64,000 nucleotides of DNA, taken from the NCBI GenBank assembly GCA_025782575.1, contig JALGYY010000017.1:237892-301891 (forward strand). Direction: 5' to 3'. Position 1 is the stretch's first letter. Each line of letters opens with the position of its first letter. The notes under the pieces are model-generated. The model worked only from the letters and a program-made list of their open reading frames with translations. It was not told where the DNA came from and did not search any database. This stretch comes from a bacterium (GTDB lineage: Bacteria > Orphanbacterota > Orphanbacteria > Orphanbacterales > Orphanbacteraceae). The position numbers and the translations under genes were made by a program. Positions 29,624 to 41,451 of the stretch are shown here, in pieces.

Positions 29624-29707
29624 CCCGGACTTCTCACCAGCATTCTGCTGCGGCCTCGAATAGCAGGCTGGCAGACAGGCGTGCTTAGTGATACGCTCCA
29701 CTTCGTC

Positions 29708-30376
29708 ATGTTGAATCGAATTCAAAGCACAATAGATTTCCGGCTTCGCACGTACGCCATGGCTGCGATTTTGTCTGCCATGCTATTGACGCTCCACACA
29801 GGCTGCGGGAACGGCGGAGGCCGGACAGACCCCGATACCGGCGGATCGGGCAGACCCACGGCGGAATCGTTGACACTTCAAGGCTGGATTCGATATGAGG
29901 AGGGCGCATTTGAAGAAGGTCAGTCCCTCTTCGAAAAGGCGATTGAACAGGATGACGGCTACGGCGACGCTCACAATGGAGCGGGATGGTCCCAGCTTCG
30001 AATCGGATCCCTGGCATCGGCCGTTCAATCGTTTCATGACGCAAGTGATGCCGGTATGAAGACGGCCGATCCCCCGGCAGGACGGGCCGTGGCGCTCCGG
30101 GACATCGAGCCGGTTGACTGGCAGGCGACGTTCGATGCGGCAACGATCGCGCTCAACCGCGATCGCCGGTATGTGTTCAGCCATGACACTCTGTTCAACT
30201 GGCGTGGTCTCCGTCTGATTCTCGCCCATTCCGCTTTCGGGCTCGCCCAGTATGATCTCGCAAATGCGCAGGTCGACTCACTGGGCGGTAACATACAGAA
30301 TCCCTTCGAAGATGACTTCACACGGAATCTCCTTGCCGAGCTGGAGCGATTAGGCACGTCGATCAGGAGCCGATAG
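29708..30376 (+). CDS. TPR-containing lipoprotein
   Basis: This protein has about 222 residues and a lipoprotein signal (AMAAILSAMLLTLHTGC, lipobox LHTGC). Then come a Gly/Asp-rich spacer and two or more TPR-like helical hairpins (LTLQGWIRYEEGAFEEGQSLFEKAIEQD; AHNGAGWSQLRIGSLASAVQSFHDA). It is probably anchored in the outer or inner membrane facing the periplasm. Function unknown. No clear ribosome-binding site marks the start; the ATG at 29759 is the alternative. Confidence 0.7.
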   Translation: MLNRIQSTIDFRLRTYAMAAILSAMLLTLHTGCGNGGGRTDPDTGGSGRPTAESLTLQGWIRYEEGAFEEGQSLFEKAIEQDDGYGDAHNGAGWSQLRIGSLASAVQSFHDASDAGMKTADPPAGRAVALRDIEPVDWQATFDAATIALNRDRRYVFSHDTLFNWRGLRLILAHSAFGLAQYDLANAQVDSLGGNIQNPFEDDFTRNLLAELERLGTSIRSR

Positions 30377-30395: not shown

Positions 30396-30425
30396 TTGAC
30401 ACGCGCCGCTATCCTGAACTATACT
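30396..30425 (+). promoter_or_regulatory. Strong sigma70-type promoter of the sulfur-reduction operon
   Basis: A consensus -35 TTGACA (30396-30401) and -10 TATACT (30420-30425) are separated by 18 bases. Transcription should start near 30432, only about three bases before the leader-peptide ATG. Confidence 0.88.
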
Positions 30426-30434
30426 CAAGACATC

Positions 30435-30497
30435 ATGAATCTCAGCCATACCATCTGTTGTTGTTGTCTTTGTCTCCGTCCCGGGGAAAAGGGGTAG
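30435..30497 (+). CDS. Cysteine-rich leader peptide of a transcription attenuator
   Basis: This is a 20-codon open frame reading MNLSHTICCCCLCLRPGEKG and ending in TAG. It has four consecutive TGT cysteine codons at 30456-30467 and a fifth at 30471-30473. It starts about three bases after the predicted transcription start, so it is almost leaderless, and it has no ribosome-binding site. It lies upstream of genes for sulfite and sulfate reduction, whose end product feeds cysteine. This is the layout of amino-acid attenuation: scarce Cys-tRNA stalls the ribosome at the Cys run. The frame and codons are seen directly; translation is inferred. Confidence 0.85.
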   Translation: MNLSHTICCCCLCLRPGEKG

Positions 30498-30546
30498 GCT
30501 GCATCTGATTCATTGACTTATTTACTTTTTTCAGAGATCAGCCCAC
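30494..30546 (+). promoter_or_regulatory. Antiterminator helix of the cysteine attenuator
   Basis: GGCTG (30497-30501) and TCTGA (30504-30508) can pair with CAGCC (30539-30543) and TCAGA (30531-30535), giving two five-base helices around a small internal loop. Two more pairs are possible beyond an A/C mismatch, out to base 30546. The 5' arm overlaps the leader stop codon, so a ribosome that finishes the leader covers it, whereas one stalled on the Cys codons leaves it free. The 3' arm shares bases 30543-30546 with the terminator stem, making the two folds exclusive. Confidence 0.72.
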
Positions 30547-30571
30547 TGCCGGCCCGGCGGTGGCTTTTTTT
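30543..30571 (+). terminator. Intrinsic terminator (attenuator) before the siroheme gene
   Basis: CCACTGCC (30543-30550) pairs with GGCGGTGG (30556-30563), with one G-T wobble and a five-base loop extendable by G-C pairs. Seven T residues follow at 30565-30571. It sits between the leader peptide and the first structural gene. Confidence 0.85.
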
Positions 30572-30590
30572 GTTTTGGGGGATGATCCTG

Positions 30591-31274
30591 ATGGGCGAGA
30601 GCCAAGTTAACGGACCGGCAACTGCGCTGCCGCTTCCCATCTTTCTTATTCTGGAGGGGCGAAGGGTGCTGCTTGTGGGGCATGACCTTGAGGCCGCGGA
30701 AAAAGCCCGTCTGCTGCAGGAATCCGGCGCGATCCTGACCATTGTAACGGGAGACAGGAGAGATCGGCCCGAGGCTCTGCTGAAAGGATTACCGGCCGAT
30801 CATGTAGTTGACATAAAAAACAGACCGTTCCGCGCACAGGATGTGAATGGAATGGACCTTGTCATCGCCACTCCATCGATCGGGAATGTGCAGTCCGAAG
30901 TTGCGGATGCTTCCAGACGCGCCGGCGTCATCTGCAACACAATGGATCGACCCGAATCATGTGACTTCTTCTTTCCCGCGGTACACAGGAGCGGCGAATT
31001 ACAGATCGCCGTTTCCACAAACGGACAGTTTCCCCTGCTCGCCGCCCGTCTCAGGGATCGGCTGGGCAGCACTCTCTCGAGACGTGCCGGTGAGGCATTG
31101 ACCTTACTGGGAGCAGCCCGGCGGAAAATGAGGCAGAGTCGTCTCCGTTCTGTCCGGGGCAATACCCGCTCGCTCGCGACCCTGCTTTCGAACGAAGTTC
31201 TTGAAGCTTTCCAAACGGGAGACATTCCCATACTCAAGAAAAGGATCAGAGAATGGCTCTCCTCGGCACATTGA
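30591..31274 (+). CDS. Siroheme synthase N-domain: precorrin-2 dehydrogenase / ferrochelatase
   Basis: This 227-residue protein matches the Met8p/CysG N-terminal module. A Rossmann fold (LPIFLILEGRRVLLVGHDLEAAEKARLL) is followed by the conserved CNTMDRPESCDFFFPAVHRSGELQIAVSTNGQFPLLAARLRDRL. It oxidises precorrin-2 and inserts iron to make siroheme, the cofactor of the sulfite reductase encoded two genes on. I start at the ATG at 30591, eight bases after GGGGGA. The open frame extends up through the terminator and is not coding there. It overlaps the next gene by 22 bases. Confidence 0.93.
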   Translation: MGESQVNGPATALPLPIFLILEGRRVLLVGHDLEAAEKARLLQESGAILTIVTGDRRDRPEALLKGLPADHVVDIKNRPFRAQDVNGMDLVIATPSIGNVQSEVADASRRAGVICNTMDRPESCDFFFPAVHRSGELQIAVSTNGQFPLLAARLRDRLGSTLSRRAGEALTLLGAARRKMRQSRLRSVRGNTRSLATLLSNEVLEAFQTGDIPILKKRIREWLSSAH

Positions 31275-32098
31275 CTGAAAATCGACATATTCGCCCGGTA
31301 CCGGACAGTAGAGGCTCAGGGTCGGGCGGCTCCGTGTTCCTTCTCGGCGCCGGTCCGGGCGATCCTTCTTTACTCACGATTCGGGGAGCGAAGATTCTCG
31401 CCCGTTCCGAAATCGTGTTCTACGACGCGCTGATCCCACCTTCGTTCCTGGCGGTCATCCCTGAAAGCGCCCGGTTGATCCCGGTCGGGCGCCGGAAGGG
31501 ACATGTTCTTCTCGGACAGTCCGAGTTGCACCGCCGTCTCGTCCGTGCTTCGAGATCCTACCGGACAGTGGTCAGGCTGAAAGGGGGGGATCCGACATTC
31601 TTCGGGCGAGTCGGTGAAGAGGTGCAGGCTCTTCAGGAAGCTGGTGTAGCGGTACAGATCATCCCTGGTGTGACGGCAGCGTCTGCCGCAGCATCACTTC
31701 TCGGTGTTTCACTCACCGAGAGAGGCCTCTCATCATCCTGTGTGTTTATTACCGCCCACGGTTCTACGATCGATGGCAGTGGAAGATGGAACAGAGCCGA
31801 AGTCATTCGGGCATCGCAGGGGGCCGACACGATTGCGATCTATATGGGCGCCACGATCGCGTCGAAAGTCGGCGAGGCGCTGATCGAATCGGGCCGAAGC
31901 GAAAGAGATCCGGCGGCGATCGTCGCCAAGGCGTTCATGGCGGGAGAATCATGGCGGGTTCTGTCGCTTCGCGAACTTGCCATGAAAGGAATTGAGGAAT
32001 CGATCACCCGGCCCGCCCTCTTGCTTTCAGGGCCGACTCTCGGGCGGCTCATTCCCCATTACGCAGAGGAATGCTGCGAGGAAGGATCAGTCGCATGA
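31253..32098 (+). CDS. cobA: Uroporphyrinogen-III C-methyltransferase (SUMT)
   Basis: This is a 281-residue SAM-dependent methyltransferase. Family motifs are VFLLGAGPGDPSLLTIRGAKIL, YDALIPPSFL, VRLKGGDPTFFGRVGEE, IIPGVTAASAAASLLGVSLTERG and TIAIYMGA. It makes precorrin-2 from uroporphyrinogen III for the siroheme enzyme encoded just upstream; CysG is thus split into two proteins here. About 28 extra residues precede the fold. AAGGAT lies before the ATG, inside the end of the upstream gene. Confidence 0.96.
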   Translation: MALLGTLTENRHIRPVPDSRGSGSGGSVFLLGAGPGDPSLLTIRGAKILARSEIVFYDALIPPSFLAVIPESARLIPVGRRKGHVLLGQSELHRRLVRASRSYRTVVRLKGGDPTFFGRVGEEVQALQEAGVAVQIIPGVTAASAAASLLGVSLTERGLSSSCVFITAHGSTIDGSGRWNRAEVIRASQGADTIAIYMGATIASKVGEALIESGRSERDPAAIVAKAFMAGESWRVLSLRELAMKGIEESITRPALLLSGPTLGRLIPHYAEECCEEGSVA

Positions 32099-34383
32099 GC
32101 GATTCCGATCGATTCGGGGACAATCTCAAGGTCTGGCAGGGGGAATCGCCTCATCAGGACGAACTCGATATCATGCGGCGCCAGATCGGGCGTGCCGAAG
32201 AGGGGACTTTGGCGCCTGAAAAATTCAAAGCCTATCGTCTGACCCGGGGGACTTACGGCCAGCGCCAGGCCGGCGTGCAGATGATCCGTGTCCGTATACC
32301 GAACGGCATCCTGAATTCGGATCAGCTTCTGGCCTTCGCAGAGATTGCCGAGAACCATGGCCATGGCATCGCTCACGTCACCACCCGCCAGGACGTCCAG
32401 TATCATCATATACCGCTCGATGAGGTGCCGCGCGTACTCGAGATCCTGGCTGGTGCCGGCCTTCACACGCGAGAGGCCTGCGGCAATTCCGTCCGCAACA
32501 TCACCTGCTGCCCGTACTCGGGAGTCTGCCCGGGCGAACCTTTTCCCGTAACTCTCTACGCTCAGGCAGTCGCTCGATTTCTGCTCCGCCATCCGGCTGC
32601 GCAGCTCATGGGCAGAAAATTCAAGATCGCATTTTCGGGTTGTGATGATGACTGTGCGTCAGGAGCGATTCATGACATCGGCGCGATCGCACAGGTACGC
32701 CGCCATGGGAATCAGGAAGAGCGCGGATTCCGCATGCTCGTAGGAGGCGGCCTTGGCGCCACACCCTACATTGCTGAAGTGCTGGACGAGTTTCTTCCTG
32801 CCGAAGAGCTTCTTTCATCGTGCGACGCCATCGTCCGTCTCTTCGCGAACCACGGAGAGCGGCGTGTCCGCGCTCGTGCAAGGCTCAAGTTCCTGGTGGC
32901 ACGTCTCGGGATCACTGAGTTTCAGAGACTCTACCATGAGGAACGTGAGCGAATTCGAGATGCAAACGGAGCGTCACACATCATTGAAGATTACTTGACC
33001 CCTGAGGAGCAACGCGACCTGGCCGTCAGCCGGGAGAAACTGACTGTCCGTGTCGAGGAGGTCGAGGAACTACGTGCAGGACCTGACTACGGTGTAGCAT
33101 CCGGCTTTAACGATTGGGTCCGCCGGAATACCCGGCATGAGAAGCGCGGGAACTATCGATCGGTCACGGTGGCACTCCCTCTCGGAGATATTGACGGTAC
33201 CGGTCTCCGATGTCTCGCCCGGATTCTGGATCGATTCGGGTCCGGGGAAATGCGTACGACTATCAGACAGAACCTGGTGATCCACTCGGTAAAAGAGGAC
33301 GACCTGAAAGATGCTCATGCCGCACTTCAAGCCGCGGGGCTCGCCGATCCGGTCGCAGGAACGGCAACCGATATTGTTTCCTGTCCGGGAACAGATACAT
33401 GCGGAATCGGAATTACATCTTCACGGGGACTTGCGGTGGCGATCGAGAAGGAGTTGGGTAACTCGGGGATCCCGGCCGCTTTGTTATCGGGGATTTCGAT
33501 CAATCTCTCCGGCTGCCCGAACGGTTGCAGCCAGCACCATGTTGCAGGGATCGGGCTTCACGGTGTCGCCCGCAAAGTAAACGGAGTCCCTGCGCCTTAC
33601 TATCAGCTTCATCTGGGCGGAGAAATCAGATCCGAAAACAGCCTAGCCGCCAAAGGGACGATCCGTATTCCCGCCTCCCATACGCCGCAGGCGATCCGGA
33701 TTCTCATTGAACGTTATCTGGAGGAACGAACACGACATGAGCCTCTCCCCCACTGGCTCAGACAGCTCGATCTGAAACGCGTAGAAGAATGGCTCGGTGA
33801 TCTTCTCGAACCTGAGTCACTGAATCCGGAGCTCAGTGCCTTTGTTGACTGGAATCGAACAGAGCCGTTCAGCACGGCGGCGATCGGGCAGGGAGAGTGC
33901 GCGGGTGCCGGTGTCGACCTCGGTCCCGACCTGTTTGAGGATAGTGCTGCAGGACTGAGAGAGGCAAGGTTCTACGTTCAGCATGGCCAATGGGTCGATG
34001 CGCTCGCAGAGGCGCGACGAGCTCTGATCGCGGCCGGCCGGATTACACTCGAGCAAGGGGCCGGGAAGCGTTGCAGTACGGACTGGGAGGTGATCTGCGA
34101 GTTTCGGGCGAGGCTGATCGATCGCGGACATGCATCGGATGGGTGGAACGATCTCCTCGCCGAAGGTGACGAACTCCTGTGTGACAAAGATGTGCCGGCC
34201 GACCGTCTCGAATCATGGCTCGGAGGGATCGATCGATTTCTCGAAGAGGCGCGGAAACTTCAGAAGAACTTGCAGGTGGCGAAAAATGTCCCGGGGGCAC
34301 CGGGTCTTCCCGGTCTGTTTCCCCGTGCACTGGCAGGCCGATCGGTCGGCAGCAGCCGTTCTCTCAGAAAGCGGGATAGCTGA
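32095..34383 (+). CDS. Ferredoxin-type assimilatory sulfite (or nitrite) reductase with C-terminal extension
   Basis: This is a 762-residue siroheme [4Fe-4S] reductase with two fused half-domains. Coupled-cluster cysteines are Cys430 and Cys436 (CPGTDTC) and Cys474 and Cys478 (CPNGC). The N-half has HVTTRQDVQYHHI and RNITCCPYSGVCPGE. The C-terminal extension, roughly residues 590-762, is helical (EARFYVQHGQWVDALAEARRAL), HEPN-like, and not needed for catalysis in the family. No flavoprotein subunit is encoded, so ferredoxin is the likely donor. Sulfite is favoured over nitrite because cysH and a Cys attenuator share the operon. The start ATG overlaps the cobA stop (ATGA). Confidence 0.92.
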   Translation: MSDSDRFGDNLKVWQGESPHQDELDIMRRQIGRAEEGTLAPEKFKAYRLTRGTYGQRQAGVQMIRVRIPNGILNSDQLLAFAEIAENHGHGIAHVTTRQDVQYHHIPLDEVPRVLEILAGAGLHTREACGNSVRNITCCPYSGVCPGEPFPVTLYAQAVARFLLRHPAAQLMGRKFKIAFSGCDDDCASGAIHDIGAIAQVRRHGNQEERGFRMLVGGGLGATPYIAEVLDEFLPAEELLSSCDAIVRLFANHGERRVRARARLKFLVARLGITEFQRLYHEERERIRDANGASHIIEDYLTPEEQRDLAVSREKLTVRVEEVEELRAGPDYGVASGFNDWVRRNTRHEKRGNYRSVTVALPLGDIDGTGLRCLARILDRFGSGEMRTTIRQNLVIHSVKEDDLKDAHAALQAAGLADPVAGTATDIVSCPGTDTCGIGITSSRGLAVAIEKELGNSGIPAALLSGISINLSGCPNGCSQHHVAGIGLHGVARKVNGVPAPYYQLHLGGEIRSENSLAAKGTIRIPASHTPQAIRILIERYLEERTRHEPLPHWLRQLDLKRVEEWLGDLLEPESLNPELSAFVDWNRTEPFSTAAIGQGECAGAGVDLGPDLFEDSAAGLREARFYVQHGQWVDALAEARRALIAAGRITLEQGAGKRCSTDWEVICEFRARLIDRGHASDGWNDLLAEGDELLCDKDVPADRLESWLGGIDRFLEEARKLQKNLQVAKNVPGAPGLPGLFPRALAGRSVGSSRSLRKRDS

Positions 34384-35126
34384 TGTCCCGCGCCCCGGCA
34401 TCGCAGCCCGAATTGTCTGCAGTCGATTCCTCCCCGCTTGATGAGTTTGAGCAGGCGACTCCCGGGCAGGCACTTCGCCTCGCTCTTAGACGCTTCGGTA
34501 ATCGTGCGGCGCTGGTCACCGCATTCGGCGCCGAAGGAATGGTTCTGATCGACCTGGCCGCCCGGTTCGCTCCCGGCCTGCGATTGATCACGATCGACAC
34601 GGGCCGACTGCCTGAATCAACTTATGTATTGATGGAGGAGACACGGCGTCGGTACGGAGTCAGTATCGAACTCTACTTTCCCGAGACCCGTGCCGTGGAG
34701 GAACTCTCCCTTCGACACGGACTCTATTCGTTTCGGAATTCGATCGAGGCAAGGCGGGAATGTTGCAACTTGAGAAAAGTTGAGCCACTCCGGAGAGCGC
34801 TCGCCACGGTGGATTGCTGGATTACCGGGCTCCGGCGAGATCAATCGGTTTCTCGCCATGATATCTCCCGCGCCGAAGTTGACGAAACGCACGGGAATAT
34901 CATCAAGCTGAACCCGCTTGCGGAATGGTCCGATCGCGAAGTGTGGGCGGAGATCAGGAAGAACGGCACCCCCTACAACCCGCTGCATGATCAGGGGTAC
35001 CCGTCTATCGGCTGCGCCCCCTGCACACGCCCCGTCCGGGCGGGCGAAGGCCCCCGATCCGGGCGGTGGTGGTGGGAGACCGCGGGCAGCAGAGAGTGCG
35101 GGCTTCATCTACATCCGTCGCAATAG
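34383..35126 (+). CDS. cysH: CysH: adenylylsulfate-type (Fe-S) phosphosulfate reductase
   Basis: This 247-residue enzyme reduces activated sulfate to sulfite. LVTAFGAEGMVLIDLAAR and LITIDTGRLPESTY form the PP-loop-like nucleotide site. Cys127-Cys128 (RECCNLRK) and Cys211/Cys214 (GCAPC) are the CC...CxxC set that binds a [4Fe-4S] cluster in reductases preferring APS. The tail ends in ECGLH, carrying the catalytic cysteine. It closes the operon, with a TGATG overlap to the sulfite reductase. Sulfate adenylyltransferase is not in the window and must be elsewhere. Confidence 0.95.
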   Translation: MSRAPASQPELSAVDSSPLDEFEQATPGQALRLALRRFGNRAALVTAFGAEGMVLIDLAARFAPGLRLITIDTGRLPESTYVLMEETRRRYGVSIELYFPETRAVEELSLRHGLYSFRNSIEARRECCNLRKVEPLRRALATVDCWITGLRRDQSVSRHDISRAEVDETHGNIIKLNPLAEWSDREVWAEIRKNGTPYNPLHDQGYPSIGCAPCTRPVRAGEGPRSGRWWWETAGSRECGLHLHPSQ

Positions 35127-35237: not shown

Positions 35238-38200
35238 ATGAGCGGACGTTTCTGGTTTGCCAATATGACAACAAAGTGGATTGGCGTAGGGCTAGGAATC
35301 GTAGCTGTCTTGCCTGCCATGCTGTCCGAGGTTCATGCGGAAAGCTCCCTTATTCCCACTTTCCTTCAGCAGATGAACCCCTTCCCAGTTACGCAGGATG
35401 GTGAGCTACTTCGAGAGGCCTTTAGCGGTGGTTGGCACCAGATGAAACCTCACTTTGTTGACCTCGATGATGATGGCGACTACGACATGCTCATAGTCCG
35501 GGAATTTCCCGATAACCGCCTGACGTACCTGCGAAATGACGGGACCCCCCAAGTCCCTCAATTCGTTATCGCTGCTGATCCCTTGCCAGGCGTTACTTGC
35601 CTCTCGTGGATCGACCCTGTAGACATCGATGGCGACGGTGACATCGATATCATGGCAGATGGCCTAGGTGGCGTTGTTTGGTTTGAGAACGTCGGGTCAA
35701 TTCACAAGCCCAAATACGAAAGGGTTGAAGATCATCCGGGTCTCGATTCACTTGAGGTAGCGGCTCTATCCACGTATCCACGATTCCATGACATGGATGC
35801 GGATGGAGATCTTGATTATCTCTGGATCAAACCCTTGGGGGGCGAGGGAGTCTACCACGAGAATATCGGTAGTTCAGAAAACCCGGAGTTCCTCTCCTCT
35901 GATCAGGGTTGGGGGGGATTTGATACATTCTTTGACCCTGGCGATGACAAGTTATCTGGGAAACGTGTTTCCACGGATGAGTACCATGGCAACTCATCGC
36001 TGACGGTGGGCGACCTGAATGGAGATTCGTTCCCTGACTTGCTGGTTGGTGACCTTCAGAATCAGGGGCTCTGGTACTTTCGAAATGAACCGGACTCCAT
36101 CAACCCATTCTTCACGCAGGTGACGCGAAACGTCCTGCCGGATTCTCCCGGCAGCCGGAGCTTCACCGGATTGGTTGATTTAGATGGCGACGGGGTATTG
36201 GAACTATTCGCTTGTCCTGAAGATCGTAGTGGCATCGACGCGTTTCGGTACTACGAGCGAGATCGCAACACAGACGAGGGTTTCGTGCTGGCCGACCCCA
36301 ACTACTTCAAGTCAATCGACATTGGAACGTTCTCAAGACCGACCTTCATCGACTATGATGCAGATGGAGACAACGACATCGTCATCGGTGGGGATGACGG
36401 CTTTTCTGAAGAAGGGCAGATAGCCGTCTATGAGAATATTGGGGATGGCCTCGGCACCGCCTTCCAGTTTGTCCCCGTAGAGGAAACACCTTTTGTTGCC
36501 GTGCAAGAAGTTGCTAGCAACCTCGGCCCAGTCCGATTCACGTTTGGCGATCTAGACGGTGATGACGACCTCGATTTCTTGCTTGGCACGCACAACAAAA
36601 TCCTCCGTTACGAGAATATCGGATCCAACTTGAATCCCTCATACATACTCTGTACCGAGGGTTGCATCACTCCGTCTCCCAATGCAGATACGAGACTTGC
36701 TCCGGAACTAGCGGACATGGACGGGGACGGCGACCTGGATCTCTACATTGGGGAGTTTGGAAACTCATGGACACCGAATCTTTTTTACTACCGGAATGAT
36801 GGGGGGAGCTCCTTCTTTGATCCGGTTCTACTTTCAGACAACGCTAACAACGAAATAGTGGACCTAGGTTTCAGCCGGTTCGAGGTTCCCGACAAACAAC
36901 TGGTGCCTGCTGTAGTGGACGTCAACAACGACATGCTGCCAGATCTTCTCCTCGGTAGCGCGAGAGGGACGATTCTCTACTGCAAGAACCTAGGTCGGCT
37001 GGACAAACCACAGTTCGAAGTCGTTGATACGATATTCGCAGGAATCGACCCAGGTTTTGCATCTTCCCCCGCGGTTGGCGATATCGATGGTGATGGCGAT
37101 TGGGATCTTATCGTAGGAGAGGGCGCTGGAGGAGTTACACTCTATAGAAACATAATGGCGAATCTCCGCGCAGATCGATTGCCCGATGGTAGTGTTCAAT
37201 TGTCCTGGACGGCGGGCAATGGTGAGGCAATTCAGAGCTTTAATATCCTACGTAGAGATACAGGCAGCGATACCTACGAGGTTCTGACAAACGTGGCGAT
37301 CGACCCGGCAACTTCGACGCAAGCGTGGGCTGACGATTCCGCCGACCCCGCTGAGGCTTACTTTTACAATATCGCGGCGATTACCCCCGATACAATCCTG
37401 ACGGGCACCTCGCCGGCCCAGGTCATTCCGGGGGAATTTGCACTGTCCGGATACACCCTTGAAACTGATAGCCACTTCGTCACCTTATACTGGTCACTCC
37501 AATTCGCAAGGCCGGACATCGCCTTTCGCGTGGAACGTACAGGGTTTACCAGCAACACGATGCTAAACATCTCAGCTGCTAATGGCCGAGAATTCCTCGT
37601 TGTGGATTCGACCGCTCTTGTTGGAAACACATACTCCTATACTCTGCATGCATCGGACTCCGAGTCCCTTGACACGCTCCTGCTCACCGATTCGATTGCG
37701 GTCCCCCTCCCAACAGTGACCATCAAGAACTTGGACTCCCGATCTGACGGTCAGGGACGGAGAATCACGTGGCAGTTGGAGCGGGAGGTCAATGGATTGA
37801 GCTTCGACTTGATTCGCGTCGATGACAAAGAAACGACGGTCATCAATACCGATCCAATAGTAGGAATGAAGACCTTCGAGACTATCGATGATGGTCTCGA
37901 GAATCTGGGAAAGAGCCCAACCTATACTGTTGTCGCATTCTATTCGCTTCGTAGCCAACGAACGGCCTACCCCACTGACCTGTTGAGGGAAAACAGCTCC
38001 TTGACAAAACCGACTCTCTTTTGGCTTCATCAGCTTCGTCCGAATCCAATCGTGTTCGATGGTGGCTTCTTATACAGGATTGCGTTTGATTTTCCCGCAA
38101 CATCCGATCTGGAGCTAATCGTCTACGATATTGCGGGACGGGTTGTAAATGAATTATACAACGGGAATCGGTTGTTTGGCGTCGACCAAGAGGTGTTCTG

Positions 38201-38306
38201 GGATGGGCGAAGTAAATCGGGGGAGATCGTATCTGCCGGAATCTATTTTATCCGGGCATCTTCTCAGTGGGGCAGCCAGGTCCAGAAGCTGATTGTACTC
38301 AGATAA
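35238..38306 (+). CDS. Secreted VCBS/FG-GAP repeat protein with C-terminal sorting domain
   Basis: This is a 1022-residue exported protein. Residues 1-35 form a signal peptide. About ten calcium-loop repeats of the D-x-D-G-D-x-D-l type (VDLDDDGDYDMLIV, VDIDGDGDIDIMAD, ADMDGDGDLDLYIG and others) run from about residue 74 to 630 and should fold as an FG-GAP beta-propeller. Fibronectin-like strands follow. The last 80 residues read RPNPIV...YDIAGRVV...FWDGRSKSGEIVSAGIYFIRAS, a FlgD/T9SS-like sorting or Ig-like domain. It is probably surface-bound or released. Base composition is visibly lower in GC and codon use differs from its neighbours, suggesting recent acquisition or a special expression class. 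Confidence 0.85.
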   Translation: MSGRFWFANMTTKWIGVGLGIVAVLPAMLSEVHAESSLIPTFLQQMNPFPVTQDGELLREAFSGGWHQMKPHFVDLDDDGDYDMLIVREFPDNRLTYLRNDGTPQVPQFVIAADPLPGVTCLSWIDPVDIDGDGDIDIMADGLGGVVWFENVGSIHKPKYERVEDHPGLDSLEVAALSTYPRFHDMDADGDLDYLWIKPLGGEGVYHENIGSSENPEFLSSDQGWGGFDTFFDPGDDKLSGKRVSTDEYHGNSSLTVGDLNGDSFPDLLVGDLQNQGLWYFRNEPDSINPFFTQVTRNVLPDSPGSRSFTGLVDLDGDGVLELFACPEDRSGIDAFRYYERDRNTDEGFVLADPNYFKSIDIGTFSRPTFIDYDADGDNDIVIGGDDGFSEEGQIAVYENIGDGLGTAFQFVPVEETPFVAVQEVASNLGPVRFTFGDLDGDDDLDFLLGTHNKILRYENIGSNLNPSYILCTEGCITPSPNADTRLAPELADMDGDGDLDLYIGEFGNSWTPNLFYYRNDGGSSFFDPVLLSDNANNEIVDLGFSRFEVPDKQLVPAVVDVNNDMLPDLLLGSARGTILYCKNLGRLDKPQFEVVDTIFAGIDPGFASSPAVGDIDGDGDWDLIVGEGAGGVTLYRNIMANLRADRLPDGSVQLSWTAGNGEAIQSFNILRRDTGSDTYEVLTNVAIDPATSTQAWADDSADPAEAYFYNIAAITPDTILTGTSPAQVIPGEFALSGYTLETDSHFVTLYWSLQFARPDIAFRVERTGFTSNTMLNISAANGREFLVVDSTALVGNTYSYTLHASDSESLDTLLLTDSIAVPLPTVTIKNLDSRSDGQGRRITWQLEREVNGLSFDLIRVDDKETTVINTDPIVGMKTFETIDDGLENLGKSPTYTVVAFYSLRSQRTAYPTDLLRENSSLTKPTLFWLHQLRPNPIVFDGGFLYRIAFDFPATSDLELIVYDIAGRVVNELYNGNRLFGVDQEVFWDGRSKSGEIVSAGIYFIRASSQWGSQVQKLIVLR

Positions 38307-38381: not shown

Positions 38382-39689
38382 CTATTCCACGGTCACCGAC
38401 ACCTGCATTTCGTCGATCGTATAGACGGGCAGGAATTCCTCGCCTGAGAGTTCGGGATGCCCCGCATCAATAACGAATGACGGCGGAAGTGCGCGGAACA
38501 GAAACGCCGCATCGAGGTCGAACTGCTCCGTTCCGCTCTCGATCGCCATGCGATATTCCGTTTCATCGTACTGAAGAGGGGTCAGTGTCAGGTTGATGTC
38601 GAGTGTCGCTACTTCAGTCCGTTCTCCCTTCAGAACCGAGTAGAACCGCTTGAACTGAGGATCCCGCGTGCCGTTGTAGTCGAGTTCCCGATCCTCGTCA
38701 AACATCCCGCTCTCGAAAACAGATTCACCGCCTGCGCTGACCACGAGACGGATCCAGCAGTCACGATTGAATCCGACACCGCTCGGCATGTTGTGGCCTG
38801 TCAGATTCCGCACTCCCACAATTACGGAGAGGCTCTCCCCTTCGGCGAAGCGCTCGGCGGTCAGCCCCTCGATCGCCCCCGCTGTCGTCATGAGCGATTC
38901 GACAGCGGCTCTCTGCCGTTCCTTCATGGGAAAGTCGGTAATCGCAAGGTCGACGCCGACGAATTCATGCCTGGTCAGGGATCTAATCGGGCCGCCTACC
39001 GCGGCTTCCCCCTGGTATGTCGGCATGTGGCACTCCTGGCACTCGCGCCCCATCGCACTGAATGATCCGAGCCACTCCGTCCACGTCACCTCGAGCGGTT
39101 CCCCCTCGATGAAGATATCGTGGCAGTTCCGGCAGGCCGTGGAATTCTGGAAGAAGGTCCTTTTCTCGGACAGATGAAACGAATTTCGTACCGGATCAGC
39201 GATCGGACCGTACTTGATCACGCCGGGATTGAACGTCATGTACGACGAGGAGTCACTCCCGATGAGACCGTCATTCGCCTCCCCCGGATCGATCGTTACG
39301 TGGCAGACATCACATGTGATTCCCTCTTGAATCACGGCCGGCTGCGTGGCCGGATCGACGACACCGATCGCCTCACCCGTGAGGAATCCGATCGGCGAGT
39401 GGCACTGGATACAGAATTCGGGTTGCTCCTGACCCTGATCCATGATCGCCCGTTCGTTCAGGGCAAAAAACAGAGGATCGGTAAACGCATAGGCATGCAT
39501 CGACCCGCTCCACTCTTCGAAATGGACAGGATGGCAGTCCTTGCACTCTTCAGCCGACTGAAAATCCGAAACCTTGAACTCGGCTCCGTCTCCGCCGCCG
39601 TCATCAACGGGAGATCCATCGTCACCACAACCGGCAAGGATAAGGGCGGCACCGGCGATAACGAGCAGTCGTCTTAATTGGCGGGTCAT
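38382..39689 (-). CDS. Pentahaem c-type cytochrome lipoprotein
   Basis: This is a 435-residue lipoprotein (RRLLVIAGAALILAGC) with five CxxCH haem sites: CKDCH, CIQCH, CDVCH, CRNCH and CQECH, all in the first half, as in cytochrome c554-like and related multihaem families. The C-terminal half is beta-rich (AEGESLSVIVGVRNLTGHNMPSGVGFNRDCWIRL). It is likely a periplasmic or surface electron carrier. TAGGAGGAGGCGCTCG precedes the ATG at 39689. It is 13 bases downstream of the YVTN-type gene, so the two form one unit. Confidence 0.88.
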   Translation of the reverse strand: MTRQLRRLLVIAGAALILAGCGDDGSPVDDGGGDGAEFKVSDFQSAEECKDCHPVHFEEWSGSMHAYAFTDPLFFALNERAIMDQGQEQPEFCIQCHSPIGFLTGEAIGVVDPATQPAVIQEGITCDVCHVTIDPGEANDGLIGSDSSSYMTFNPGVIKYGPIADPVRNSFHLSEKRTFFQNSTACRNCHDIFIEGEPLEVTWTEWLGSFSAMGRECQECHMPTYQGEAAVGGPIRSLTRHEFVGVDLAITDFPMKERQRAAVESLMTTAGAIEGLTAERFAEGESLSVIVGVRNLTGHNMPSGVGFNRDCWIRLVVSAGGESVFESGMFDEDRELDYNGTRDPQFKRFYSVLKGERTEVATLDINLTLTPLQYDETEYRMAIESGTEQFDLDAAFLFRALPPSFVIDAGHPELSGEEFLPVYTIDEMQVSVTVE

Positions 39690-39702
39690 CGAGCGCCTCC
39701 TC

Positions 39703-41451
39703 CTAGTTTCCGAGTCCGGGGATGATGGAAATTCCCGTCGGGTCTTCCTCCACCTCGACCACATTGTCCACAAAAAATGTATTCAGATTGATAAATGCGA
39801 CAAAACCGGGAATGCCTCCCCCTTCGGTCGGATGGTGGGGCGGCACCTCCTGCGCCGTATTCTCGTTCGTGACATAAGCGTATGTCCCATCTTCTGAAAT
39901 GTCGATTCCGTGGCACTGGGCAAACTGGGGGTCGGTAATATGGAGCACCAGCGCCAGCGAATCGGTGGAAATGACCGAAACCGTGCTGTTCAACTGGTTC
40001 GCGGTTACCACATAGTCGCCTCGGGGGGACGCTTCGAGCTGGAACGGTCCTACCACCTCGCCTGGATTCCTCTGCAGACTGATCCGCTTGATCACCGCAC
40101 CGGCTGCGATATCGATCACCTGGACCTCGTGACTCGAGTGGCAGGAGACGTACGCGTAGCGGTCGTCCCGATCGATCGCGATCTGGAGGGGCTCATTCGT
40201 TTCCCCCTCATCCTTCATCAGGGGAATCGTCTGCACTACAGACAAATCATCCAGTGAGATGACCGTCACATTGTCCGACTTGCTGTTCCCTACATAAAGC
40301 ATATACGGCGGGGCGTGCGTGATGCGCATGCCGTGCGGCGCACTCCCCACAGTGAGAACCTGTGTCACCTCCATGGTTTCCGTGTCGACAACCTGCACAC
40401 TCTGAGTCCCCCCACCAGTATCCCAGTTCGAGATAAATGCCCTTGTGCCGTCGTCGGTCACAATTACGTGAGCGGGGAGCGGCCCGACTTGCGTTTTGGC
40501 TACGAACGTATAGTCCTCGGCGGAGAACTTCCAGAGTTCGCCGATCGAGGGGGTGGCCTGGATCAATGTCACATAGAAAAACTCGGCAGCATTGTCGCTG
40601 ATAAGAAAGTGGGGCACTTCGAGGTGATGATCTGAAATGCCGACCGGAATGACTCGTATCGTAAGCCCTGTTTCGCGGTCGAGCACCGTAATGGCATCGG
40701 TACCCTGATTCGTGTTGAAAATCCGATCCGTCACATTCTGAAAGGGCATCTCGTCCGCCCCGTTTCTTGCACCCCCGTCGATCCACTTGCGTATCAGGCT
40801 CAAGGTTCCATCGTCCAGGGGGGGAGATCCCTTCGGCATGCGGAGACTCGAATCGTCCTCGCGCTCGAGGAAAAAGATCACCGGACTTTTGTCGGCGTTT
40901 ACCGGTACAACCACAGAACCATTAACCGAGCCGGCTAACACACCCTCATAAGAACCGAGCCGTAAGTTCTGTTGCGCGGTGGCGTCGTTATGACAGCCCG
41001 AAAGGGCGCAGTTATTCGTGAAAATCGGTTGGATGTGATCGGTGTAGTTCAATGCATTCAGGATGAACATCGAGACTTCGCTCGATTCGAAACGGTTACC
41101 GGCAACGTCGGTCACCCGGGCCAGCGCGGTATGAGCCCCTTCGGGGAGCTCGTCCGTCGGAAGCGGGAACGTCAGGCTGCCGTCCCATCCTGCCGGGAAG
41201 CCGATCGAGTCCACCATCGTAACGGCGTCGTCGAAAACAAGTTCGATTCTACGGATTTCGTCGGCGGCCACGCGATCGACATTCACTTGTATGCGGATAT
41301 CGAACAGGCCCGCAATTGTCGAACCGCTGGTCGGCGAGACGATGCGAATCGTCGCCACGTCGCCAGGACCGGTCGTGCCGCTGTCCCCACAACCGAAGCA
41401 TAAGACTGCAAACAGAAAACCGGCCAGTATGAGAGGTCGTATTCGTTCCAA
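39703..41451 (-). CDS. Lipoprotein with Ig-like, single-haem (CxxxxCH) and YVTN beta-propeller domains
   Basis: This 582-residue protein starts at a TTG codon (41451) with AAAGGA eight bases before. A lipobox (AVLCFGC) is followed by an Ig-like domain (about residues 35-130). A cytochrome-like segment comes next with NNCALSGCHND, a C-x4-CH variant of the haem site common in FCB-group proteins. A beta-propeller with YVTN-type repeats fills residues 250-580 (GTRAFISNWDTGG; YMLYVGNSKSDNVTVISLDD; YAYVTNENTAQ). It is probably a surface partner of the pentahaem protein encoded next. Substrate or partner unknown. Confidence 0.82.
   Translation of the reverse strand: MERIRPLILAGFLFAVLCFGCGDSGTTGPGDVATIRIVSPTSGSTIAGLFDIRIQVNVDRVAADEIRRIELVFDDAVTMVDSIGFPAGWDGSLTFPLPTDELPEGAHTALARVTDVAGNRFESSEVSMFILNALNYTDHIQPIFTNNCALSGCHNDATAQQNLRLGSYEGVLAGSVNGSVVVPVNADKSPVIFFLEREDDSSLRMPKGSPPLDDGTLSLIRKWIDGGARNGADEMPFQNVTDRIFNTNQGTDAITVLDRETGLTIRVIPVGISDHHLEVPHFLISDNAAEFFYVTLIQATPSIGELWKFSAEDYTFVAKTQVGPLPAHVIVTDDGTRAFISNWDTGGGTQSVQVVDTETMEVTQVLTVGSAPHGMRITHAPPYMLYVGNSKSDNVTVISLDDLSVVQTIPLMKDEGETNEPLQIAIDRDDRYAYVSCHSSHEVQVIDIAAGAVIKRISLQRNPGEVVGPFQLEASPRGDYVVTANQLNSTVSVISTDSLALVLHITDPQFAQCHGIDISEDGTYAYVTNENTAQEVPPHHPTEGGGIPGFVAFINLNTFFVDNVVEVEEDPTGISIIPGLGN

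Follow-up and report, generated by a model that had tools for sequence, protein, structure and literature searches.

The leader that precedes a four-gene operon for sulfite reduction in the window, by which we mean the whole 64,000-nucleotide stretch of DNA analyzed here, very probably attenuates transcription in a ribosome-mediated way, with charged Cys-tRNA as the signal. Upstream of the operon, a sigma-70-like promoter, a 20-codon ORF, and an intrinsic terminator with a T7 tract follow one another in that order (Table 1). Our reading rests on the anatomy of the sequence, on thermodynamic models, and on a comparable leader that precedes cysK-cysE in two relatives. The anatomy and the relatives' leaders thereby support a preliminary description of this DNA, which had proposed that the operon is controlled by Cys-tRNA-responsive attenuation; from them we infer the transcription start, the translation of the leader, the stalling of ribosomes within it, and a read-through that depends on cysteine.

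Table 1. Features of the window leader, of the operon behind it, and of the leaders found in two relatives (positions are those of the window unless a locus is named).
Feature	Position	Strand	Remarks
Sigma-70-like promoter	30396..30425	+	TTGACA 30396-30401, 18-nt spacer, TATACT 30420-30425
Segment 1	30433..30452	+	Protector partner of segment 2, including the leader start codon; minimum-energy fold of the untranslated leader
Leader peptide ORF	30435..30497	+	MNLSHTICCCCLCLRPGEKG, then stop; nearly leaderless; 20 codons; ATG 30435, TAG 30495-30497
Regulatory codons	30456..30473	+	TGT TGT TGT TGT CTT TGT (Cys-Cys-Cys-Cys-Leu-Cys), read from the sequence
Segment 2	30493..30516	+	Leader stop codon region; partner of segment 1; 30493-30508 is the antiterminator 5′ arm
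Segment 3	30531..30547	+	Antiterminator 3′ arm; 30541-30547 also in the terminator 5′ arm
Intrinsic terminator and T7 tract	30541..30571	+	Stem 30541-30564 with a one-base bulge, or 30543-30563; T7 30565-30571
Precorrin-2 dehydrogenase / siroheme synthase N-terminal domain	30591..31274	+	TIGR01470 over cut-off; alternative start 30582
Uroporphyrinogen-III C-methyltransferase	31253..32098	+	TIGR01469 and NF004790 over cut-off
Sulfite/nitrite reductase hemoprotein, NirA/SiR-like	32095..34383	+	NIR_SIR PF01077 twice over cut-off; alternative start 32071
CysH, APS/PAPS reductase	34383..35126	+	NF002537 and TIGR02055 over cut-off
G005 leader region	L012 1480-1700 (G005:C54)		Poly-Cys leader, terminator, then cysK, cysE
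G006 leader region	L013/L079 (G006:C62)	reverse	Poly-Cys leader, terminator, then cysK, cysE

The promoter matches the consensus at 11 of 12 positions and ranks first among the sigma-70-like sites of the surrounding 20 kb. Judged from the spacing to the −10 element, transcription is predicted to start at ~30431–30433, only ~2–4 nt before the leader ATG, which leaves no space for a Shine–Dalgarno sequence; with the ATG 9 nt past the −10 hexamer, the Cys-run ORF is of the leaderless type if this predicted start holds. The gene upstream of the leader region (29681–30376, + strand) is unrelated and encodes a putative lipoprotein with repeat-like helices and without an NCBIfam match. On the same strand as the leader, it ends 20 nt short of the −35 hexamer; no terminator was seen between the two, and its transcription may continue into the leader.

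All five Cys codons of the leader (30456–30467 and 30471–30473) are TGT, and the neighboring genes prefer TGC (47 TGC versus 26 TGT). With five Cys in 20 codons, the ORF is enriched for the amino acid that the downstream pathway serves; given a local Cys frequency of 1.4%, at least five Cys per 20 codons has a probability of p = 7e-6. Four consecutive Cys codons (TGYTGYTGYTGY) give 14 matches at 12 places in the 4.88-Mb genome, and when all 14 were read, only the window leader turned out to be a short ORF followed by a terminator.

That terminator, situated between the leader ORF and the first gene, is equaled in 1.7% of dinucleotide shuffles (a fraction of 0.017). Competing with it is an antiterminator helix in which GGCTG (30497–30501) pairs with CAGCC (30539–30543) and TCTGA (30504–30508) with TCAGA (30531–30535); past an A-C mismatch, the helix continues for three more pairs (30495–30545, 30494–30546, and 30493–30547). 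Its 3′ arm has 30541–30543 in common with the base of the terminator, and the extension takes terminator 5′-arm bases up to 30547, whereas its 5′ arm overlaps the leader stop codon and would be covered by a ribosome halted there. The preliminary description had already placed the promoter, the 20-codon ORF with its Cys-Cys-Cys-Cys-Leu-Cys run in TGT codons, the terminator with seven T, and the alternative helix with its overlap of the stop codon and its bases shared with the terminator stem; we find all of them where it put them, the helix being three pairs longer. What it had overlooked is a protector helix between 30433–30452 and 30493–30516, in which the first six codons are paired. This helix would give termination without translation and completes the four-segment layout of the trp/his type. 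The energy of the duplex between segments 1 and 2 is reached in 0.3 to 1.4% of shuffles. When the stretch between the Cys run and segment 3 was shuffled, a protector of equal quality arose in 0.4% of shuffles, an equally good antiterminator in 5%, and the two together in 0.1%; taken on its own, the antiterminator region is matched by 11% of dinucleotide shuffles and is not significant.

In the mechanism that we propose, transcription would begin just ahead of the leader ATG and a ribosome would trail the polymerase. With ample Cys-tRNA, the ribosome would reach the stop codon and cover segment 2, leaving segments 3 and 4 to form the terminator. With scarce Cys-tRNA, a stall on the Cys run would break the protector between segments 1 and 2 and free segment 2 for segment 3, and their pairing would let the polymerase continue into the genes for siroheme synthesis, sulfite reductase, and CysH. 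If the leader were not translated at all, the protector would form, so that termination would be the default.

Thermodynamic modeling with ribosomes at defined positions agrees with this scheme. The pair 30541–30564 at the terminator base, next to the T-tract, has a probability of 0.98 in the untranslated leader and 0.96 when the ribosome occupies the stop codon, as against 0.002, 0.02, and 0.32 for ribosomes stalled at the first Cys codon, the fourth, and the last, respectively. When the modeled ribosome was advanced codon by codon, the switch between terminator and antiterminator fell within the Cys run in all three leaders (window, G005, and G006), and in the window leader the terminator base re-formed as the ribosome passed the run. 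The pairings of the window leader are in this sense mutually exclusive in the models. At equilibrium, however, the antiterminator need not displace the upper part of the terminator stem (mid-stem probabilities of 0.5 to 0.99 during stalls), and this modeled coexistence is a weakness of the window example. As a control, the same equilibrium calculation on Escherichia coli trpL and hisL gave no switching at all, because real attenuation is decided during transcription. Since these two proven attenuators fail the equilibrium test, the test carries little weight against the window leader and cannot refute it.

Our sample of the phylum comprised seven genomes from one family and five genera, the window's own genome included, and sulfite reductase (E < 1e-40) and CysH (E < 1e-15) were found in no other of the seven. 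Two species from another genus of the same family, G005 and G006, instead carry a poly-Cys leader and a terminator directly ahead of cysK-cysE, genes that we named from their translated sequences and their order. The leader peptides, MRTFARGIGCCCCCRRARAAGGRGLI in G005 and MRTFARGIGCCCCCCRARAAGGRASI in G006, have the common form MRTFARGIGCCCCC(C)RR/RA.., and both terminators are GC-rich, with a T7 tract in G005 and a weaker TTTTCT in G006. No indel separates the two leaders, and both frame and Cys run are kept; the run lengthens from five to six between G005 and G006 by an Arg-to-Cys change, and the stop codon keeps its position, as TGA in one species and as TAG in the other. The antiterminator of these leaders spans the whole terminator 5′ arm and is stronger than that of the window, where the overlap is modest rather than complete. 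In the models, their terminator forms with a probability of 1.0 in untranslated RNA and of at least 0.97 once a ribosome sits at the stop codon, compared with 0.03 and 0.00 for a stall at the first Cys, a sharper switch than in the window leader.

The window and cysK-cysE leaders also resemble each other in sequence. Aligned from the −35 element to the T-tract, the window leader and that of G005 score above all 1000 dinucleotide shuffles, and the same is true of G006; in the part after the stop codon alone, the alignment with G005 scores above 2000 shuffles, but that with G006 does not (14%). An 11-mer in the antiterminator arm region, ATCTGATTCAT, occurs at 30502–30512 of the window and at 1546–1556 of L012 (G005) and is absent from the G006 leader. 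Part of this likeness is explained by shared function (promoter, Cys codons, and T-tract), so a common origin is a possibility and not a result. We would tentatively entertain, without thinking it likely, that one ancestral Cys attenuator of the family was inherited by, or moved between, operons of the cysteine pathway. If so, that ancestral attenuator would today precede the sulfite reduction operon in one genus and cysK-cysE in the other.

The operon behind the window leader fits a cysteine signal in its predicted functions. Sulfite is reduced to sulfide with the help of siroheme, and sulfide feeds cysteine synthesis. The best NCBIfam matches of the hemoprotein, NF007126 and NF010029, fall below their cut-offs; with these specific subfamily cut-offs missed, we favor sulfite over nitrite as its substrate because of the siroheme and CysH neighbors. 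Both CC motifs can be read in the CysH sequence, which suggests the iron–sulfur APS reductase type. Directly after cysH lies a gene for a large protein with DxDxDGD-type repeats and a C-terminal secretion-type sorting domain (35238–38306, + strand; TIGR04183 at cut-off). On the opposite strand, a protein with several CxxCH heme-binding motifs (38382–39773) adjoins a beta-propeller-like protein that also contains CxxCH (39703–41451), and from their sequences the two look like an electron-transfer pair.

Searches beyond these three leaders yielded no further example. No poly-Cys leader with a terminator was found at the only three sulfite reductase relatives, all of them distant (35–45% identity), that a search of genome contigs located, nor was a Cys leader with a terminator seen within ~1.5 kb upstream of the 29 CysH loci and 28 cysK loci that were read in other phyla. 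Matches to the pattern TGY4-N80-110-T6 in 386 genomes were numerous, many of them expected by chance in AT-rich genomes, and none in the minority that we read was an attenuator. Within the phylum genomes, the pattern TGY3-NNN-TGY produced no further leader, and no Cys leader precedes the cysS genes or the other cysK copies. A long one-frame stretch of CCCWS-like repeats on the reverse strand of L009, from ~1306, is no leader but probably represents the antisense strand of a gene for a glutamine-rich repeat protein. As positive controls we looked within the phylum for trp and poly-His leaders and found none; amino-acid attenuation is thus not visibly common there.

Several other explanations of the window leader deserve consideration. 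Stalling might act on translation, as in mycobacteria, by changing how accessible the first gene's ribosome-binding site is, instead of affecting termination. The poly-Cys ORF is indeed nearly leaderless, a start type shared with mycobacteria, but an intrinsic terminator with T7, which has bases in common with the alternative helix, separates the leader from the operon, and the ribosome-binding site in question (~30577) lies beyond this terminator in no predicted helix; we regard translational control as unlikely here. The signal could also be the CCCCLC peptide itself, stalling or binding according to metal or redox state rather than reporting Cys-tRNA. Clustered cysteines can in general bind metals, and the downstream enzymes contain siroheme and iron–sulfur clusters. 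Against this, the Cys codons of G005 and G006 occur in an unrelated peptide context, where cysK-cysE shares only the theme of cysteine synthesis, and the modeled switch occurs at the first Cys codons, presumably before the cysteines could exit the ribosome tunnel, so that we give the peptide very little credence as the sensor.

It is similarly improbable that we are looking at an ordinary terminator or a constitutive leader to which the Cys ORF and the alternative helix belong by coincidence. Terminator-like sites occur in this region at about twice the frequency expected by chance (30 versus 16.8), and the antiterminator, as noted, is not significant alone (11% of shuffles). The terminator nevertheless lies between a consensus promoter and the operon that it would silence, the Cys content (p = 7e-6) and the combination of protector and antiterminator (p = 0.001) are both hard to obtain by chance, and a second poly-Cys leader with a terminator precedes cysK-cysE in the relatives. 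Finally, sulfur genes are controlled by riboswitches in other bacteria, and a metabolite riboswitch, for example of the SAM type, might govern the terminator with the ORF as an incidental passenger. This we consider hardly credible: no Rfam family, and no covariance model of a known sulfur riboswitch, matches the leader even at E up to 1, and the ORF fills most of the segment between promoter and terminator.

Attenuation by Cys-tRNA in the window leader would matter for several reasons. Cysteine is under-represented among the known amino-acid attenuators, and cysteine-sensing versions are rare. Such a mechanism implies that transcription and translation are coupled in this lineage, and together with the cysK-cysE leaders it suggests that cysteine is sensed via Cys-tRNA at different steps of the pathway in different genera. 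A design this short and nearly leaderless also lends itself to reporter assays.

The closest parallels in layout are E. coli trpL and hisL, which combine protector, antiterminator, and terminator with a leader peptide containing a run of the relevant amino acid. The window leader has the same four segments and an amino-acid-run peptide but differs in its amino acid, Cys, and in being nearly leaderless, whereas trpL and hisL, from a proteobacterium, are preceded by a normal 5′ untranslated region. In 2005, Seliverstov et al. predicted candidate Cys leaders in Actinobacteria, upstream of cys operons and of cbs, with the mode of action stated to be unknown (PMC1262725). These, too, have Cys runs in short ORFs, but no terminators or conserved hairpins were found in them (PMC1262725), whereas the window leader has both a terminator and helices. 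The preliminary description had further mentioned poly-Cys leaderless ORFs with an attenuating role in mycobacteria. This agrees with Canestrari et al. (2020), cited in two later papers for leaderless poly-Cys ORFs that respond to cysteine, although the passages concerned term the system translational attenuation (PMC9094748, PMC13236596). As described there, the mycobacterial ORFs share with the window a leaderless or nearly leaderless start, a Cys run, and a cysteine operon, but the T7 terminator sets the window leader apart from a terminator-free, translational mode. A further published proposal is uORFC-8-2 of the Rhodobacterales, located ahead of cysS, a motif with two tandem Cys codons and an intrinsic terminator for which transcription attenuation has been predicted (PMC8632094). 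In both cases a short ORF with tandem Cys codons is followed by an intrinsic terminator and attenuation by Cys-tRNA is proposed; by position and Cys count alone, however, the window leader falls outside that group, having five Cys codons rather than two, a sulfite reduction operon rather than cysS, and a host from a different phylum. The attenuator class is thus known, and with uORFC-8-2 a Cys transcription attenuator has already been proposed in print; what is new, relative to the open-licence literature, is the full complement of parts, placed before sulfite reduction genes and before cysK-cysE, in another, little-known phylum.
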